A stretch of DNA of 64,000 nt from Tubulanus polymorphus (taxonomy: Eukaryota > Nemertea > Palaeonemertea > Tubulaniformes > Tubulanidae): NCBI RefSeq assembly GCF_964204645.1, contig NC_134029.1, positions 20,602,450 to 20,666,449 of the forward strand, in the 5' to 3' direction. How positions within the stretch are numbered: position 1 is the first letter of the stretch; every line of letters begins with the position of its first letter. Positions 39,243 to 63,901 of this stretch are shown here, in pieces. The notes beneath the pieces were generated by a model. That model did no database searches. It worked only from the letters and a program-made list of their open reading frames with translations, and was not told the origin of the DNA. Both the position numbers and the translations under genes were made by a program.

Positions 39243-41827
<2,585 letters not shown>

Positions 41828-43776: not shown

Positions 43777-45890
43777 ATGGGGAATACTTGGAGTCATAGA
43801 AAAGGGATTAAAGGTACTCCTCCTAACTACGGTGGACCGTGGGTTCTACTATACTGCGGTTCAGCTACAAAGTGGCCGAAGATATCAGGTAACGTACTCA
43901 ATAAGAGAATAGGTGATAATATTTATTTCGGCAAAGAATTTTTGTTACATTCAATATAGTCGTAACACGTAAAGTCATCAAGTATGGACACCATCGGTAT
44001 GGACTATAGAGGACTAGGTACTATTGAAAAAAAATGAGAGCTAAGAGGCAGTTGAATAAGTTATTGATACAAGAAAAAGTATATGTCAGTTATTAACGCA
44101 ATAATGACACATAGTTGTTGGTTGTCTAATATAACAATATTCTTTGAACAATTAACTTTGCCTTTACTTGAATAATTGAATTTATGTATTATCAATGAAA
44201 CTGTCAAGTTCAGAATCGATGTAAATATTGTTCTAGGTCTCTATGGATTCTGTGAACAGCCGTACACATGTCACGGTGAAGAATGTGACCGCGAATCGAT
44301 TTGTTTACAGTACATGAAAGCGCAATTACATAAATGTCAATTCACCATTGAACTGCAAAGGTAACAATTAAAACCGTTATCTACAACCTTGTTCGTTTCA
44401 AAAGTCTAGTACCTAACGAGTGTTCTGGAAACAATAAGGTATTCTAGGTGTAATTTATAAGATCATCATCTAGTAATCAGACTGACTCCAGATGCAAAGT
44501 TTTAGAAATTTTGAATGGTCAACTCCGAATGGATTATTGTCTGCATATCACATGGAGAATCTCGTGTCATTTTATGTAAAGCATTTCTACGATGATTGCT
44601 TTTTTGGTGAAAACTTGTCTGATTTTTCGTTAAGTGCAATTATAAAAAATTTTAGATATTACGTTATAAAACACAAATAAATCAATATTTTCTGCCACAT
44701 TCTCGCAGGGTGGCCACTGACCTGGTAAACTGTGGGCATCAGAATAATCTGGGGAAACAATCAGGGATCAAACTCAAGGAATTTGACAAGTTTGTAGAAA
44801 ACCTGGAAAAATCAGGAAGATAGGATATGCCATCAGACAAAGCAGGTTGATTGGATATGCTATTGGACACTCATCTTGTTCACCAATTTAAACTAATTCT
44901 CATTTGTTCTTTTTGAATATCAGATTCAAGAAGTCGTCGATCATGATACCATTTGGCAATATTCCCGACTTGAAGACGAAATCGCGTTGCGGATTCACGT
45001 TGTGCGCGAACATTTGCACGAGTCGTAAAAATCTCGCTCTGTTGCTTTTGTATCGTTGGGACAATCTGAGCTACAAGGCGACGTTCATTTGCGTGAACCT
45101 AGCGAAGAAAAGCGTCATCGGATTGCTCGACGCCGAGCCGCAGAACATGTCGGTAATACAGTGCGAGTTCAGCCCGGATAATTCGATCGTCGCGGTCGTG
45201 TTTTACCACCGATCCGACTCGACGAACTTGTTTCAGTACGATCTGTTTCTGTACTCGTTGGAGACGTTTTCGTGCATCGACGTGTTGTGCTTGAACGACG
45301 AGGTGCGGCCGTACATCGCGTTCGACCCGCGTTACGCGAGCTCGCGCATCGCCGTCATCAACTACGGCAAGAAGGGCTCGCCGCAACTCGAGAAGTCGCT
45401 CGTCACTTATTGTCTGAATAAACACGCGATCGTCTGCTCGAGCAAGGTCAGTTTGCCGTTCATATTCGGAAACAGTTGCTTCTCGTTGTTGTACACGTTG
45501 GACGGACGGTATTTGATTGTGCAGAAAATAAGCGACAATCGACATGGTATCAGCAGCGATACCGATACGTACATATTCGACTCGGACACGTTGCAGCTTT
45601 TGTGGCATCATTTCACGCATTTGCCGTCGTTCGGATCGTTCTGCAGCGTGAACTATATGCCGCTGTTCTCGAAATGTTCCAGTCGCATTTGCATTCTCGA
45701 CGAGAAGCACACCGGGCGTAAGCCGTTTCAAAACGTGGCGATATTTCAACTGCCGCGACCTTTCAACCTACAGCAACTATGCAGAATTCATATACTCGAA
45801 TGCATCAGCTCATTGAACAAGGTCGATAAGTTACCACTCCCGCATAAAATCAAAGACTTTCTCAAATTTAGTCCCATGTATTACTATTGA
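43777..45890 (+). CDS. N-myristoylated SOCS-box protein with WD-like propeller
   Basis: Predicted substrate adaptor of an elongin B/C-cullin 5 ubiquitin ligase. Exons 43777-43888, 44237-44360 and 44924-45890 encode 400 aa. The N-terminus MGNTWS fits an N-myristoylation signal (Gly2, Ser6), suggesting membrane anchoring. Exon 2 is cysteine-rich (YGFCEQPYTCHGEECDRESI). The central part has WD40-like strands (VIQCEFSPDNSIVAVVFY; YDLFLYSLETF; DTYIFDSDTLQLLWHH). The C-terminus is a SOCS box: BC-box LQQLCRIHI and Cul5-box LPLPHKIKDFL, ending about ten residues later. WSB1/2 combine WD repeats with a SOCS box but lack this N-terminus, so I do not assign a known symbol. The 45050-45760 part of exon 3 is far more GC-rich than its surroundings and leaves a long antisense frame open. 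Confidence 0.82.
44706..44822 (+). repeat. CAGGGTGGCCAC-family repeat
   Basis: Starts CAGGGTGGCCACTGACCTGG and continues with AATCTGGGGAAA, ATCAGGGATC and AACCTGGAAAAATCAGG, the repeated motifs of this family. It lies in intron 2 of the SOCS-box gene. The left end is typical of hAT-type non-autonomous elements; the right end is missing. Confidence 0.6.
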
Positions 45891-50269: not shown

Positions 50270-50284
50270 TATTAAGCAATGCAA

Positions 50285-53200
50285 TCAGATCTCAAGAGCG
50301 GCTTCTATTTGGGCTTTGAATCTATCATTATTCGTGTCAACATTTGAATCCCCAATTTGGCCATCTTCATATCTGAAATGAAGAACAATATTTCAATGAA
50401 TCCCACTCCTGTAACAGAAAACTTCACACAAAAAATAGAACTTACACAAAGAAGAACCTTGTACACACTAAACTATTATCAGTGTTCACCCATACACTTC
50501 CATGCTTCTTCAGTTTTGTTGGATGAGCAATAACTGAAAAATACAAAAAAGCTCAATTCATGTACTGGCCTTCTTTAGGACAAGTGATCCCTTGAAATTT
50601 ATTTTTCGTGTAGGTGTCGTAATTCATCAATGTAAAGGTAAAAGCCTCAATTGAAGCCTCTTATTATATTTCTGTATTTTTATAGACTGACAGAAAAGGA
50701 ATAATTCAGTTTGTTTGTCCATGGATAATTTACGTTCTGATTACCTTCACAAAGGGCGATACATGTCAGATTCCGGCTGGTTAAAAATCTTGGTTTCTGA
50801 AATGAGCACATAATGTACGATACGTTCATGAAATTAAGAGTCTAAGTCTTCCCACTACAGAATTATATACACTTACCCCGGATTCACCGGAGCCACTAGA
50901 TTTTTTCTGGCATAGTTGTTTACAATTGCCGTATCCCATGCCCGAATAACCAAACGATAAACTGCCGGACGGGCTGAGGTAAATACCTTCACCGTACGCC
51001 GCACCATGCATCTAGAATCAACAATATCTTCAATAGTAACACGATAATGATTTATAATGGGAAAATGCCTTAATTTTCGAAACTAGTTTCTTTTCGAATC
51101 TGACCTGATGTTTAGTTCCCGATGCATTGATTAAACCATTTCTCATTATTGAATGCCAGTTCTCAATATGTGAGCCACTAAAATCAGAATACGTAATTGA
51201 CAAATCTATGAAAATGACTTAATACTACAATGTATTCGATTCGCACGAAAATAAAACGTACTGAAACGCAAATATGCTGCCGTGCTCTTTTTTAGCAGTG
51301 CGGAACATAGCTTCTTTAGCTGGCGGACTACATAATAACAGAAACTGATGAGGTGTATGCATAAATTTCAATTGCTGAAATTAAAGATAAACACATCATA
51401 TAACATGTAACTCAAATGTGAAATAGATGAATCATTTTTCGCGGGAAATTTACCTTTTCTTTCGGTAGTTTTACGATATGTGACCTGTTACTCGTTATTA
51501 TCCTAAAAATCGTACGCAAATAAATGCCAACATTATTAAACAAGATTACGGTTGACGCATTCGTATTATCAGATCACTTACCATTGAAGTAATGGGTATG
51601 CCAGTATATCGCGTTTATCCATTTCTTGTTTGAGTTTATTGCCAAGTAATTTCGTCATGACAGCCATGATAGGAAACGTATCTAAGGCACGTTGTACTCG
51701 CTGATAATCCCGAAACTGCAGGAAACACATTAATAAACTATAACAGTATTTCAATTCCAAATAATCAGATCAGATCTACTACAAATTATTATTATACCTT
51801 TGGATGTAGAGCCAACTCTGTAGGATTTTTTGGGTCGACTATGGTCGGAAATGGATCGAATATAACTTCTTTTCGGTGAGACCGACAAGCGGCACTTGCC
51901 ATCGCGATGAGCAAGTCTACAACCTGAATAGAGAGATTAAGATACGAGTACATGAAGAATTCTTCTGACTCAAATCGAGGTAAAACTCATGTAGATATGT
52001 TTACCTCGGCTCCTGTAGCGATATCATCAGCGGCATCAGACATGACACCTAACGTTTGGAATGCAAATACACATAATTCCCGAGCGCACACCGCCGGCTA
52101 TGAAAAAAATATGATATGAAAAACCATGTATTAACTATTTAACGAATAAAATGCACGGGCTCTTCGGAATATGCAGCGAAATTCGAGCGGTACCTTGAGC
52201 ATTGCGCCGTTTTGAAAGACGTGCTGTTCATCACATACTACGCAATACTCGTTCAGCGTTGGAATTCGTTGGCATGTGTATTGCATGACCTGACACAAAA
52301 AACCGAATTCCAATCCGGGGATTTTCTTCGCCATTTGACCGGAACTCGTACTCGTCGGCATCAGAGTTAAGTCGGCTTCACCCGCCGTCGCGACTGCTGC
52401 CACCATGTCGGCTACGGCCGGAGTACCGGCGCTGAATTGACGCCTCGTTTTTGACGCTTTGTCAGGTGGAATTTTACCGGTTGATAGCTGTCGACCGGTT
52501 GTAGTGGGAGGTTTAGTGGTTAAGCTTCGAGCTGCTGGTGTTTCGTCGACTATCATACAATCAACGTTACTGTAGAAACAACATTGAAAATCGTGATAAA
52601 ATTTATCTTAAATTCATTATTGCAACGTAACATGATAAATTCCCACGACACAAAAAGAACAACAATTACAAAAGGCGTCCTCGAGCTTTAGTTTATTTCA
52701 ACTTTTTGACTTTATCTTCAGGAATATAGTATCTTGATTATTCATGAAGATGTCTATTGGGATAGAGTCGAAACAATGAAAATGCACTATAGTTCATTTC
52801 CAGGAATATTGTCCTATTCAGTAGGTCCTACGCTTGGTGATTAGGATTACATAGTCAAAAGGTTGAAAATAAATCATAAACTACATGCATAGCTCAAGCA
52901 AACCTTTCGGACTCATTATTCTTTTAGTATTGTGGGATTTTACATGAACAAAGTTTTTCGTCAAGATTATCGAAAATCTTTTTCGAGTCTTACTGATCTG
53001 TAGATGAAGACGCGAGAAATTCAGTTGCTTCTTGAATATTTCCTTGTGTCATGATTAAAGCGTTTCTAGCCAGAGAATGTTCGAAACCCATATCGATTAA
53101 TGTAGCTAATGAGTGATCATTCACTGATTTTTCGTTGTTGTCGCTCGTTGGTTTGTCATCATTCATGCTGATAATAAACCAAATGATAAGTGTTATTTGG

Positions 53201-56200
53201 ATGAGGGATGAACGATTTTAGGACGGAAATATACTATGCCCGGGTTCTTTTTTCAGCACTTTTGTAAGTCAAAAGTGACACTTAAGACCACAGCCCTCAT
53301 CCTAATCGTCCTTGTCTATCATGCATAATTGTCCACAAAATAAAGTCAAAAGTAAGCCCTTTAAAGCAACTATGTAAGTCCTAATTGACACTTTTCTTGT
53401 CATTTAAAACCGCTCTCCTCATCCTTACTATCCTCGTCTATGACAGATGATTGTCCAAAAAATTATCTGGGATACCAATAGTCAAAAGTAAGCACTTCCT
53501 GAGCACTTTCTGAAATTTTAGTGAAATGTAACCACTTTTTAAGGGCTTTACTTAGTTTTTTCAGAAAGAAGTAAGTATTTTAAGCAGTTTAAAGACTGGC
53601 TATAAACCCTGCTACACTGACTAATTTTTCAATCAATGAATGAGTTTTATCTACCTTTGATTGCCAAGATGTGTCTCGTCTTTTGCACGTCCTTTCTTGC
53701 GGAGGGGTGACGACTCGGTCAGCGATCCAACCGGCACAATATGTTGCTTAGCTACGTACTCGTTACTCAATTTCTTCCATTCTTGGGATATGAATGCTTC
53801 AAGTATCCTGCAAATATACCGGTCATCATAAAAACAATCCTTAAAAATTCTTGAAAATTCTTCTTTGTTGTTGATTTTGGGCCAGTTGCTCAAAAGTTGG
53901 TTAGGAATTAACCAGCGGACAGATGACGAAGTGACAATTAAAAGTTCATTGTTACTATGGTATTTATCCGCCGGTTATCTTTCACACAATTTTGAGCAAC
54001 TGAGGCCCTTTGTTGTTATGTTTAAGATGAATTTCACTTACTTTCGAAGCTGACTCCCGAGACCGAATCTTTCTTTGTTCGATGGTTGAAAAACTTCGAT
54101 CTTCGGTTCTGAAATACGAGATCGAGATTTTATCCGCGTAAGCATCAAATCAGCTTCAGTAAGAAACGAAATACTTAACAAATAACAGTGAACTGCAAGA
54201 GATGAGGCGGAATCTTACCAGATGCATCTAGATATCCAGTAAACGATAAATGAAGGCGTACTACGATTGGCTCCGCTCGAATTATTTTCCAAGCTTTCGC
54301 CGTCTCTTCCTACAAAACGATAACCATACAGAAACTAGTACATGAACATATCACGAAAAATTCACGGGTTCTCTCGAATTGGATGCATTGAATTGGGAAA
54401 CTATGGAAGACGAAGACAAACGACTCAACCCGTAAATAACGCCAAGATTAGAGCGAAATACAGAGTATGTGAGTTAACAATTAATTAATTTGAACAGTGA
54501 GTTAATTGAAACAAGTAATAAATCATTAGATGAAAACGTCTAAATCTACCTCTAAAAATGACATGTCTATATTGAATTCTATATCAATATCATCTATGGA
54601 TCCGAACAACCTGAAAAACATCATAAGTCAGCTCGACATACCAGACGCTTCATAAAGATAAAGCTCGAGATGAGATTTTCGCGATCATTGCAAGACCTAC
54701 CTATAATTGATGGCGCTTTCGCCGTAACGTTGATTCACTAAATCCATGTCATGTGAAAGGAGCGGGTTGATTTCACTTTTATAATGATCGACTTCGACGC
54801 TCTAGATAAATGACAAATGATATTTACAAGCCCTGATTAAGTCAGCAATGAATCACAGTGACCCAATGAGTACCACTGGCACTTGGTCGTCAGTATTTAA
54901 CTTTCCTAGGAGTAGGAAAGTTTCTCCATGACAATGTGCCCAGTGAATTCTCGAAGCCATTTGCTAGAAAATCAAATGCTGATAGCATTGGTTACGTAGA
55001 TGTTATCACAGAAGGTAATAATCAATGTGACGTATTTAGGATATTCAGGAGTTGACTTGATGAAATAGTTCCATCATGCAGGTTTACTTTCAATGCCAGT
55101 CAGCAATGAAACCTGGAACCTCCAAAATCAATAGAGTTCTTCCCCACACAACCCAAAATTTCAAAAGATTTCATCCACTGGTTCAGCCTGTGTCTTGTTT
55201 GCGACATTGACGGCTGCTAGTCAACTTTCTCGAAAGGTGGAACCTCTAAAATCAACACAGTTGTTTACTACATGATCATAAAAAACTGTCATAGAATTTA
55301 AAAAGGATTCCATCCACTGGGTCAGCCTGAATCTTGTATGCAAGAAAAGGTGTGATTGAAGTCCCCTTTCGCTACGCAGAGTGACAAGGGACCATGGGCA
55401 TCCCCAAGATTTTTTTTGGGGAGTTCGATTTTAGGAATAGAAGGGGGTCTGGGGAAAATTTTGAGAATCTCGTGCAAGCAGGCACGTTCTAGTGCAATCT
55501 GAGGCTGATAGATCGACTGGTTCCCGTTTACTTTGCATGTATCGATTTTATTTTGCCAATTTAGCAAATGCAGACCATGCGCCGACGTTCGTCGACATTT
55601 GAAAATTCAAAAAAGGCTTCGTTCGAACTACCATACTCCCCTTAGGGACGCCCATGGGGACTAAGTAAACGATGTCATCGATGGTATCTGATAGAGCAAA
55701 CTGTCTATAGGTGGAACGAACTTCTTAATTACCTCGTTATCGTTATAATAATACTCATAATCGTATTCATCTTCTGATTCGGAACGTTCGACGACGTCGA
55801 TGATCTCGACGGATTCCGCATCGGAAACGCAATCGGAATAATGAGATTCTTCGCTGACCATTCGCATCAACGACGTGTTCTGCGTCGTCGTCGGCGGCGG
55901 TGGTGGCGGCGGTTCGATTTTCGTCAAAGTCGGCGAGTTTTCGATCTTGCACGTCGAATTGATGATCGCCGGTTCGTCGACGATCGTCATCGTCTTTTCT
56001 TGAACCGGATGACGGACAGGAGTCGGCGGTAACGAGGATATCGGAGACGGAGGCAGCGGTACTCGAACTTCTTTATTCAATTCTATAGAAATTTGATTAC
56101 TTTTTATCAGGTATAATCCATGGGATCAAGAAAGTCGCACACCATCTAAGTCAAAATGTTCGCCATGGCGGGTATAAATTGGAACAGCCAGAAACTTGAT

Positions 56201-57536
56201 TTTCAATGGGCCTTATCACTGGAACACTGGACCTACCCCAGGGTGGCCACTTTCCGCCGTTTGAAAATCCCTGAGTTTTCCATGTGATTACACAAAATTC
56301 CCGGCGTGAATCAAGAGAAATTTCTCGGTTCAAAATGTTACATTTCATTCATTTTACATGTGCCCAAACATTATCCAAATTCCCTGAGTTTTCCAGATTT
56401 TTGGTAAAATTTGTCAAATTCCCGGAATATCCCCTGATCTTCCTGATTTTTCCAGGTTTTCCAGGCCAGTACCCACTCTGATTACACAATACATCGTGCA
56501 TTACCCAGAACAATTATAAACTTTGACTGGATCGTCAGGTGAATACAATATATCGTATAGATTTAGAAACTCAAGAATATAATGCTACTTTTATTACCTT
56601 TTGAGAGTTTAGTAAAAAGAATTGGAATTCTGTCAGAGGCGATGCGGCCTTTGGCGCCTTTTTTACCATCAGAGCGACTTATCAACGTTTGATCTGTAGA
56701 AAAACACAAATGGTAAGATTGAGAATTTAAGATCGCTTTCTAGTATCTCGTTTTCCAGACACGTATAGCGTTTCACTAATTGTACTTTTTCCCGGCTGAC
56801 ACTTCCAATTTCTGCAGCATAATAAATTCTAAATCCATATCTTCCCAATATTTGTCTTTTCTTGAATGAATTAAATGAAGAATTAAATCATTCCATATTT
56901 TCATAGTTCAAATGGAGTTTTTGAGTTATGATCTTTTATATTTCAGCAAGACTACCCCCACCCCAAATCTCCTCAGGCCGGTCGCTCAAAAGTTGGTTAG
57001 ATTTAACCAGTGGATAGTTGATGTAGTGACAATTAAAAGTCATTGTTACTATGGTATTTATCTGCCGGTTATCTTTAACCAACTTTTGAACAACCAGCCT
57101 TGAATGTTAGTGGTAGTAATCCTGAGATATCTTAAATAGTGTAGTGATATCAAATTCATCAATTACCTGGATAATCATCAGAGAGGTTGAATATAAAGTG
57201 TATTTCGGACAGAAACTTTTTACACGAGAACTTGAATATGTTTTCTTCCCGTTGAAAAACTGAAATATGTGAATTCAAAGACATATAATCATCATCGATA
57301 AAAAACGAACCAACTTTCCAAAATTATCGGCTGATCTTGGCCCCTACAATCGTATACTTAATTCGAACTTGGGGCGGGCCGAATTAGATTAGAGATAAGG
57401 TATAGAAATCAAAGGATCTTTATCAGTGCATTAGTTTTATCTTACCAAAATTCCTGAATGGGCACTTGCTATCTTTTGAACATGTGTCAATAACTGCGGC
57501 TACATCGACGTTCATCAATTCCCTTCTGTTCTCCAT
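50285..57536 (-). CDS. PARP8: Mono-ADP-ribosyltransferase, PARP6/PARP8 family, with internal UBA domain
   Basis: Transfers single ADP-ribose units from NAD+ to proteins. Exons in coding order: 57446-57536, 57167-57259, 56598-56693, 55733-56082, 54701-54801, 54550-54610, 54219-54309, 54042-54108, 53655-53807, 52994-53167, 52194-52569, 52006-52098, 51798-51923, 51582-51715, 51454-51502, 51262-51374, 51105-51177, 50877-51011, 50745-50796, 50446-50533, 50285-50372; about 867 aa, near human PARP8. Family blocks: LSDDYP near the N-terminus, GSIDDIDIEFNIDMSFLE, KIEVFQPSNKERFGLG, RIPTLNEYCVVCDEQHVFQN, LQWIITSNRSHIVKLP. Catalytic motifs: FAFHGSHIENWHS (His), HGAAYGEGIYLSPSGSLSF (Tyr) and CTRFFFVYEDG at the end. 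Exon 52994-53167 encodes a UBA domain (ATLIDMGFEHSLARNALI…) that I do not know from vertebrate PARP6/8. Exon 55733-56082 is proline- then acid-rich. Orthology to PARP8 versus the PARP6/8 ancestor is undecided. Confidence 0.94.
52994..53167 (-). other. UBA-domain exon of the PARP gene
   Basis: 58-codon exon flanked by acceptor TTATCAG and donor GTAAGA, phase-compatible with both neighbours (AG+C in, CA+T out). It reads SLATLIDMGFEHSLARNALI and then MTQGNIQEATEFLASSS, with the MGF loop, helix-2 alanine pattern and final FL of UBA domains. Expected function is ubiquitin binding. Confidence 0.85.
53879..54007. mobile_element. GCTCAAAAGTTGGTTA MITE, copy A
   Basis: Starts GGCCAGTTGCTCAAAAGTTGG and ends CAATTTTGAGCAACTGAGGCC, inverted termini of about 20 bases. 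It fills over half of the PARP intron between 54042-54108 and 53655-53807. Confidence 0.75.
54802..55732. other. PARP intron 4
   Basis: A 0.93-kb intron. It holds two tandem-like segments sharing ATTTCATCCACTGG / TTCCATCCACTGGGTCAGCCTG and …TCAAAATCAATAGAG / TCTAAAATCAACACAG near 55100-55330, suggesting an old local duplication. An open minus-strand frame at 55322-55567 has no splice support. Confidence 0.4.
56239..56480. mobile_element. CAGGGTGGCCAC-family element in PARP intron 3
   Basis: Starts CAGGGTGGCCACTTTCCGCC and carries several AAATTCCC / CCTGAGTTTTCCA motifs. It ends CCAGGCCAGTACCCACTCTG, a diverged inverse of the start. This is the most complete copy in the window. Confidence 0.65.
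56975..57099. mobile_element. GCTCAAAAGTTGGTTA MITE, copy B
   Basis: Starts AGGCCGGTCGCTCAAAAGTT and ends AACTTTTGAACAACCAGCCT. The core GTGACAATTAAAAGT…CATTGTTACTATGGTATTTAT is shared with copy A. It lies in PARP intron 2. Confidence 0.75.
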
Positions 57537-60473: not shown

Positions 60474-61083
60474 CTTAAGACATATGCAAATCAATATTCG
60501 CTGTTTTTTATTTCATCATTGTCATCATTATCAGATCTTTTGGTTACGAGCCATTCCGCCTAGCCCATTCTTGAGGATGTCCTTAGGTGCTGCTCAATAA
60601 GAATTGTGACAATTGGTGTAGTGTATTTGTTTTACTAAGGCGTTTTAAAAATTTTATTGTTATTCCTGTATTGTGAATTCTTCATTGGTATGTGTCCCGA
60701 TTTGTACACTTAAGGATAAATAAAGATTAATTGAATTTAATTGAATAAACGAGAAATGGGTGGCTCCAAAGAATTCTGAGTTAGATATTTTAAGAAATAT
60801 CCATTATCAGGCAGCATTTCTAATTTGGACCATTTATCGATATTTTGAACTACTCTCTCCTCTTTTTACAAGGCAAGTTTTAGATTATCATCATTTTTAT
60901 GAAAGTACGGCCTGTTTTAATAATATTCATATCTATATTCTTTTTCCAGTTTGGTCTCTCTGTTGTGGTCCTTTCCGTTTCGCCAAAAAAGCATAGAGCC
61001 GAGGATGGAAAGTTGAGCAAATATTGAAAAAAATTGTGCTAGAATTTAATTTATTTGAAGCAGTTCACTTAAAAACATTGGTA
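60474..61083. other. Intergenic region upstream of AGGF1
   Basis: No exon was recognised. A LINE-like tail (GGATAAATAAAGATTAATTGAATTTAATTGAATAAA) lies near 60713-60748. A 78-codon frame at 60760-60996 has no recognisable domain. Confidence 0.45.
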
Positions 61084-63774
61084 ATGGATGATTCAAAAGA
61101 CAGCGTATCGAATCTGGAATTGCCAGCGCAAGAAGGGATTAATTCTGAACCAACGCCTACGGGCGACAGTTCCGCACTTTCTACCACAACGTGTATAAAC
61201 TCGCAGGAGGATAGTAACGCCTTAACTTCGACAACGACCGAACTGTGTAAAAATGATTTGGTCGAAAAGGTTACAAGTTTAGAAGCCGAATTAGAATCGA
61301 GTCGCAAAAATTTAAACCGCATGCAAAGACTTTACGAACGATCGATGAAATATAATGAGGATCTTCGCGAACAAGTGAAACATTTGAGTAGTGAACTTCA
61401 TGATATTAGAACAGGTAATGACAGCCTCTATAGATAGGCCTAGCATTAGTCTATCCCTCAAATGCTGAGTCCAGATTATTGGTTCAAAGTTTCTTGGCAG
61501 TGGATATTTTGCTGACTCCGTAATTCTAGTTAACAGTTTTATGCCGATTACGCATTCTTGGTAGTTAGAAAATTCAAGGAAATAGGCCTAGTTAAAGAGA
61601 TTAGGGCAGTGAATTCAGGAATCACCAGCATTTTACTAGGTCTAGTGCTATGTCTGCCTACTAGTAGCACTAGGCCTGACCCTAATCCTAGCCCTAAAAC
61701 TAAGCCTTATCCTTCTTACCAACACCCTTACCCTCTGTGCTCTCTAAGACCCTTATCCTAAGTAGGCTATTCTGAAAATGAATAATTGATAAATTTTCCA
61801 AGGTAGTAAGCTCTAGTAAGCACCCAAAGCACCTCTTGGATCTGTGTATGTAGATCTGTCTCTGCAAAATATCCACTTCAATGTTTCATTTTCCTAATGT
61901 GGGTAAGAACCTTCAATGCTTTGTATATCAAAACGCTATCTTGTTTTATAGGTAACAATAAATCGGACGCCTCCGTACAAGTAGACATCGATCTTCTTTC
62001 ATCAACTCAGGCTGAACATGCGGCAGCAAAAGTTGATTACGGTATTACCAGTTCGCAGAATCTTCCAGATTTAGAAAATGACGCTACAATAAAAACCGCG
62101 GAATGTAATGCTCTCGACGACCTGCAGCAGAGCCATACTGATAAGTCTATTCTGACAGATACCACGGCTGGAACTACCACTGAACAAGTAAGTATCGTCT
62201 CTAATCGACTTCACACAGGAATTTCAGGTATTCTCTAGATCATGTCTTATGCACTATCATTACATGGCATCTCAAGTTCACCATTACTTGTTCAATGATA
62301 CACTATAATTTATTTTACAATCATGAGCTTCAGTTCAGGGGCATAAGTTTTTTTAACGCAGACCGTTACAATGATATGTTTATAACGTTGATACTTAGTA
62401 TGCGTTATCTAATAAGGGGTTCTGTGCGTTGCATCATCAATATTGGTGTTTCAAAATAACAATTAATTACAATTGTGAATTTTGGTGTTATTTTGTCAAA
62501 TCAAATATATTTCAGGATTCAAAAATAATTTTATTTTTGATAAATTTTGATAATTCAATTTTGAGAGCTTGTTAATCATAATTCATCATTATAACATATA
62601 TCCAATGAACACGTTTCTAGTTACTGGTAATGTTTTGCAAAGAAGTAACTGTTTTGATGAATGTTCCAGGTTGAATCGATGTCTATCGCTGATAGTTTAA
62701 AAGCCGCTGCGGAAGAAGCTGTCCAACTGTCTGGTTTTGTTTACGATTCACAGTCAAGCATGTACTATGACTACAACTCCGGTTATTACTACGATGCTGT
62801 ATGTAACGTTTTTTGCCGATTTACAACTAATTTCTCAATATGACAGTAGACTGAGGCTCAAGTTTGTCAGAACCAATAAACTTGGATAACCATTTTGATT
62901 TGGATCCAGAAAATCTGTTCGTTGCAAACCAATACTTCTCGTTGTATTCAGTATGAAATTGCACTTCTAAATTTGTAATACTGATAAATCATTATATCAA
63001 AGTTTGTCGTAAAAAAGTTCCACCCTAACATCTAATATCACTTTAACTCTTTTATTGCATCTACACCGCAGTGCGGTGTATAAATGGGTGATTGACTTTG
63101 CTAGTACACCGCATCATAGTGTATTGATGTTATTAGTGATTAACTTTTATATTCATTGAAAGATGGCAGCACCTGATAAAACATTATGAAATATCAGTAA
63201 TCAACAATACACCGCGCCGTGGTGTAGACATACTTAGCGGTATGCCCGACAACACACTAGGGTGGAATTTTCAAATTATCTGGGGCTGCACTTTTGGGCA
63301 TTTATTAGTCTGCACTGAAAGAGTGAAGTCTTTTCGTTTTTCCAAAATTGATCAGAGTCTACTGTAATTCTATTTAAAAAATAACTGAATGGCAACGATC
63401 GCATTTTTCATTTCGTTGACCACCCAAAATTTTGTCTTTATTGAGACAGATAATGTAACATCATAATGAAAATAAATTTCAACAGATGATGATGAGCGTG
63501 TGACTTAGCGTTGCATTTTATGAATGATTCTTTTTAGGAACGTGGTCTTTATTACGATTCGAGTAACGGCACGTATATCTTCTACGACGAGCAAACGCGC
63601 AGTTATAAAGTGCATTCACAAGTCGACGTCAAACTGTTGAGCGCTTATTACGAGAGCGTGAATCTTTCGCAACAACAACAACAACAATGGCGCAACAACC
63701 GAAGCAAATCTGCCAGGAGTAAAAGTCCAACGAATAATCCTCTCGTGAAAACGTACAGACCAAATAGAAATGAA
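61084..63774 (+). CDS. AGGF1: Angiogenic factor with G-patch and FHA domains 1 (AGGF1), 5' part
   Basis: Four exons are visible: 61084-61414, 61952-62187, 62670-62798 and 63538-63774 (311 codons); the last ends in a GTGAGT donor, so the FHA and G-patch domains lie beyond the window. The N-terminal coiled coil (EKVTSLEAELESSRKNLNRM, QRLYERSMKYNEDLREQVK) matches AGGF1. Exons 3 and 4 form an OCRE domain of tyrosine-rich repeats (SGFVYDSQSSMYYDYNSGYY; RGLYYDSSNGTYIFYDEQT; YKVHSQVD), preceded by the family's SIADSLKAAAEEAV helix. A run of six glutamines and an SR-like RSKSARSKSP stretch follow. OCRE domains occur in splicing-associated proteins. The start codon is the first ATG of the frame after its upstream stops and fits the family's acidic N-terminus, but an upstream exon is not excluded. 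Confidence 0.9.
63059..63232. mobile_element. CTACACCGC inverted-terminal element in AGGF1 intron 3
   Basis: Ends ATCTACACCGCAGTGCGGTG and ATACACCGCGCCGTGGTGTAGA are inverted, and each end is itself partly palindromic (ACACCGC…GCGGTGT). A third ACACCGC block lies inside. MITE-like, single copy here. Confidence 0.65.
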
Positions 63775-63901
63775 GTGAGTTTAAAAGTAAAGCACAATAC
63801 GACCTGCTCAATCCGGATTATTTGAAACTCTTTACCCGGATGAAGCGGATTACTCTGCTTCAGACCACAATGTATTCTGAGAAAACTCAAGCGGACTAAA
63901 A

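Follow-up and report, generated by a model that had tools for sequence, protein, structure and literature searches.

A predicted UBA exon in a PARP6/8-type ADP-ribosyltransferase gene of the nemertean Tubulanus polymorphus

Few ADP-ribosyltransferases are as poorly understood as PARP6 and PARP8. Their E2-like folds were described as "enigmatic" in a 2025 review, with functional roles that are yet to be described (PMC12687431), and the domain map of the human proteins published in 2023 places a mostly disordered insertion within a split RWD (PMC10450202). For animal clade 6D, Citarelli et al. (2010; PMC2964712) found no known domain besides the catalytic one and a PfamB segment. Perina et al. 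(2014; PMC4245714) report a UBA in the PARP6/8 homologs of Acanthamoeba castellanii and Trichomonas vaginalis, a UBCc domain in those of fungi, moss and a green alga, and an RWD in that of Reticulomyxa, and also propose an ancestral link between PARP6/8 and ubiquitin. Our text searches of the open-access literature, the coverage of which is incomplete, turned up no animal PARP6/8 reported to contain a UBA, and public domain databases may already list one.

The locus described here lies in a window of 64,000 nucleotides from T. polymorphus (NC_134029.1), to which all coordinates refer. We read it as the only gene for a clade 6 (PARP6/8-type) mono-ADP-ribosyltransferase in this non-vertebrate animal. 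The gene model occupies 57536..50284 on the minus strand, from an ATG at 57536 to a TGA at 50286-50284, and its 21 exons, all separated by GT-AG introns, encode 867 aa with no internal stop. In the spliced translation, exons 1-3 (56598..57536, -) encode an N-terminal region which we take to resemble the additional RWD-like segment at the N-terminus of PARP8, and they are followed by exon 4 (55733..56082, -), which encodes a low-complexity Pro/Ser-rich, acidic linker with a negative charge/hydropathy index. By analogy with human PARP6/8 (PMC10450202), exons 5-9 (53655..54801, -) would supply the larger, N-terminal part of an E2-like RWD that is split, along with the start of its insertion. Exon 11 (52194..52569, -) would then encode the remainder of the insertion, the last RWD helix and the first half of a C4 zinc finger, and exons 12-21 (50284..52097, -) encode the end of the zinc finger, a helical extension and the ART catalytic domain.

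The Pfam PARP domain was matched in the 867-aa model at aa 707-772 (4.7e-11, 43 bits against a cut-off of 26.7), and there was a weak match, below its cut-off, to ARTD15_N, the PARP16 helical domain, at aa 584-671. The nearest solved structure is that of PARP16, and in the alignment to 4F0D the H and Y of the ART triad are present as H723 (FAFHGS) and Y758 (GEGIY), aligned to the FHGS and GEGxY of PARP16; the C-terminal end (CTRFFFVYED), which concerns the third triad residue, a residue other than Glu in clade 6 ARTs, falls beyond the aligned stretch. Similarity to human PARP6/8 is presumably high through the zinc finger and the ART domain, which we treat as a lead only. Ahead of the ART domain, at aa 535-560, is a cysteine motif (CX2CX16CX4C), begun in exon 11 and completed by exon 12, whose spacing falls within the CX2CX9-19CX4C defined as specific to PARP6/8 by Perina et al. 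(PMC4245714). No RWD was matched in the Pfam scan of the 867-aa model, just as the RWD of human PARP6/8 was missed by full-length sequence search (PMC10450202), and the split-RWD placement therefore rests on analogy with the human proteins. Relatives of PARP6/8 were absent from the viral-contig and genome-contig sets, as expected since both are without animals. As a separate observation, PARP catalytic exons occur as two equally scoring sets on two contigs of G000 (C3:3442120-3443051 and C13:17928-18859; L001 and L002), which probably reflects either a recent duplication or a haplotype copy left unmerged.

A polyubiquitin gene and other open frames share the window. The polyubiquitin gene, at 39879-41687 (+), lies ~9 kb from the PARP6/8 gene and has at least two blocks, its units being interrupted by an apparent intron and the second block comprising six ubiquitin matches. 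A 332-aa open frame at 44892-45890 (+) has a SOCS box at its end (2.4e-11) and no other Pfam domain. The open frames at 60997-63825 (+), which include a coiled-coil-like stretch, are AGGF1-like and contain an OCRE domain whose coding sequence is divided between two exons (62661-62843 and 63538-63825, +). GC is ~37%, and TTAGGG telomeric arrays are present in the genome. The arrays argue against most insects, and with the PARP6/8 gene and the GC content they are consistent with an animal other than an insect. COX1 had no match in the genome, from which the mitochondrial sequence may be missing; annelid Eryth_link_C and arthropod Chitin_bind_4 likewise had none, but the controls for these two were equally silent and the two negatives carry no weight.

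The UBA is encoded by exon 10 of the PARP6/8 gene (52994..53167, -), a 174-bp exon that covers aa 368-425, with the UBA core at ~aa 384-425. Read from 53167 to 52994 on the minus strand, the exon is (AG)C-ATG-AAT-GAT...ACA-GAT-CA, translated as S-MNDDKPTSDNNEKSVNDHSLATLIDMGFEHSLARNALIMTQGNIQEATEFLASSSTD-H, and it has AG/GT borders, the acceptor ending in ATTATCAG and the donor starting with GTAAGA; the upstream exon ends at 53655 and the downstream exon starts at 52569. These coordinates, the strand, the peptide and both junctions had been given in an initial annotation of this DNA, and all were correct when we re-read and spliced the sequence. Its claim that a UBA-like exon is spliced in phase into a PARP6/8 gene also held, as both joins of exon 10 are phase 2 in the spliced translation, and the HMM search against Pfam UBA that it had proposed returned matches over the cut-offs (see below). 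With exon 10 removed, the spliced translation stays open and no stop is created; exon 10 is thus symmetric, and the reading frame would survive its skipping. The introns on its two sides are 487 bp and 424 bp long, whereas most introns in the 3' half of the gene are 73-96 bp. By analogy with human PARP6/8, the UBA would be situated inside the long stretch inserted into the split RWD, between the helices QLRKILEAF (aa 314-322) and EFGFLCQVMQY (aa 513-523).

The assignment of the exon 10 domain as a UBA is secure. We based the call on scores over the curated cut-offs of the Pfam families PF00627 and PF22562, and exon 10 matched both UBA_7 (38.3 bits over a cut-off of 27, E=1.3e-9) and UBA (32.1 bits over a cut-off of 22.4, E=1e-7), with both matches remaining above their cut-offs in the full 867-aa model. 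The matches listed in a sequence search of the PDB with exon 10 were UBA-containing proteins throughout, the best being the UBA of NUB1 (1.2e-5). AlphaFold2, run on exon 10 alone and with no alignment, predicted a three-helix bundle (helices 10-25, 30-39 and 44-53) with a pLDDT of ~94 in the core. When this model was compared with known structures by Foldseek, UBAs were top-ranked with high probability, several of them solved with ubiquitin, including those of Cbl-b (2oob, rmsd 1.2), Ede1 (2g3q), Dsk2 (1wr1/4un2) and ubiquilin; with only 57 residues to align, the Foldseek E-values are weak. In addition, the canonical MGF loop is intact (aa 394-396). The exon 10 UBA likely binds ubiquitin.

Exon 10 also has the character of coding sequence. 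Its frame has a codon log-odds of +0.20 bits/codon, on par with the neighboring exons, whereas values are negative in the five remaining frames; of 624 overlapping windows taken from introns of the same gene, none attains the exon 10 value. Scored leave-one-out against the gene's other introns, its donor (4.2 bits) and acceptor (5.6 bits) both fall within the range that those introns span, although the donor is one of the gene's weaker ones (16th of 20, in the lower quarter). Exon 10 occurs once in the genome of 268 Mb, the next UBA-like match having an E-value of 0.43, and the catalytic region of the PARP6/8 model matches this locus alone, so that a mix-up of paralogs or haplotigs is of no concern; a second PARP6/8 copy or haplotig that might have confused the assembly was looked for in the genome and none was found. 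We also considered whether the UBA exon could be an exonized repeat. Intron 9 (53168..53654, -) does contain a diverged, old dispersed repeat, with 19 further matches elsewhere in the genome on many contigs at 70-83% identity; however, the repeat is confined to this neighboring intron, outside the single-copy UBA exon, and the idea was rejected. Overall, we consider it very probable that exon 10 is a genuine UBA exon of the PARP6/8 gene.

The UBA piece might instead belong to another gene, or be a stand-alone small ORF nested in a PARP6/8 intron, given that an ATG is found at 53166, one base past the acceptor, and a TAA right at the donor. However, any phase-2 exon with GTAA after it would show such a TAA, and exon 10 is on the same strand as its neighbors, in phase, between small introns and with an AG and a GT of its own, while no second copy of it is present in the genome; this reading is highly improbable. 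Possible, though in our estimation unlikely, is that exon 10 is real UBA coding sequence used as an optional cassette in a minor isoform only, the main enzyme being without a UBA like vertebrate PARP6/8. A length of 174 bp and the 2-2 phase would suit a cassette, as skipping preserves the frame and gives no stop, and so would the long flanking introns and the low rank of the donor. Against this, the splice scores still lie inside the range of the other exons, symmetric exons are frequent by chance (~one in three), and intron 9 is long partly because of the inserted repeat.

Some UBAs do not bind ubiquitin, and the fold encoded by exon 10 might serve as a structural or regulatory module with another ligand, whether the RWD in cis, NEDD8 or another protein. 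The best PDB sequence match, NUB1, is a protein of the NEDD8 pathway, and the position of the UBA within a split E2-like RWD, by analogy with the human proteins (PMC10450202), would make packing in cis possible. We nevertheless find a ligand other than ubiquitin doubtful, as the canonical MGF loop is retained and the closest folds include UBAs that were solved with ubiquitin.

Our preferred reading is that the exon 10 UBA is a ubiquitin reader which acts as a tether for the enzyme. For this, at least some of the mRNA would have to contain exon 10, and the UBA would bind mono-ubiquitin or ubiquitin chains via the MGF loop and the third helix. Carried on long flexible linkers inside the E2-like fold and beside the zinc finger, the UBA could anchor the ART domain to substrates or machinery that bear ubiquitin, and the ART domain would then add mono-ADP-ribose to the ubiquitin-bearing partner or to nearby proteins. 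In this way ADP-ribosylation may be directed to, or stabilized at, ubiquitin-marked targets. Because exon 10 has a length divisible by three and is phase 2-2, the tether could be added or removed by splicing with the frame of the enzyme unchanged, and a symmetric exon would thus give the animal the option of both forms of the enzyme. The UBA in Acanthamoeba and Trichomonas, the UBCc and RWD fusions, and the split RWD of the human proteins represent repeated links of the family to ubiquitin (PMC4245714; PMC10450202), and we count these in favor of our reading. On balance we lean modestly toward the ubiquitin-tether mechanism, taken by itself. A mutant of the MGF loop would be a direct handle for testing the link between PARP6/8 and ubiquitin.

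The presence of a UBA in an animal PARP6/8 makes an ancestral origin of the domain somewhat more plausible; independent gains of the UBA are equally compatible with it. A bolder proposal, which we make tentatively and consider unlikely as a whole, is that a ubiquitin-reading UBA was ancestral in animal PARP6/8, was kept in some invertebrates and was lost before or in the vertebrates, with the symmetric exon serving as a switch between ubiquitin-directed and ubiquitin-independent mono-ADP-ribosylation. If true, vertebrate PARP6 and PARP8 would be derived enzymes in which direct recognition of ubiquitin has been lost. The idea that this lineage of ARTs acts together with ubiquitin gains support from an ortholog whose insertion also contains a predicted ubiquitin reader.

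PARP10 is a clade 3 mono-ART with ubiquitin-interacting motifs. It has in common with the gene described here a mono-ART with a built-in ubiquitin reader, but it differs in its clade, in having UIM helices instead of a UBA and in its other accessory domains. With vertebrate PARP6 and PARP8 the gene shares the C4 zinc-finger motif, the helical extension and the H-Y ART; by analogy it would also have the split RWD with a long insertion, and we assume its N-terminal extension to be of the PARP8 type. Unlike the single gene found here, vertebrates have two paralogs, in which the insertion is mostly disordered and no UBA has been described. The initial annotation had described the linker of vertebrate PARP6 and PARP8 at this place as unrelated sequence, and the human domain map describes no UBA there (PMC10450202). 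The PARP6/8 proteins of fungi, moss and algae that carry UBCc belong to the same ART clade and likewise have a ubiquitin-pathway domain fused to it; however, theirs is an E2 catalytic domain, which in fungi lies at the C-terminus, whereas the nemertean gene has an internal, predicted ubiquitin reader (PMC2964712; PMC4245714). The closest counterparts are the homologs of Acanthamoeba castellanii and Trichomonas vaginalis, which, according to Perina et al. (2014), share with our gene model the architecture of a clade 6 PARP6/8 ART and one UBA in a single polypeptide. Because these cases were reported in 2014 (PMC4245714), the pairing is not new in kind, and of the initial annotation's claim of a UBA built into a PARP6/8 enzyme, the domain arrangement stands in the gene model while the implied novelty is reduced. 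Those organisms are protists, whereas here the gene is that of an animal and the UBA would, by analogy, lie in the linker that joins the two parts of the RWD. The nemertean gene is, therefore, a new animal member of an already reported combination of UBA and PARP6/8.
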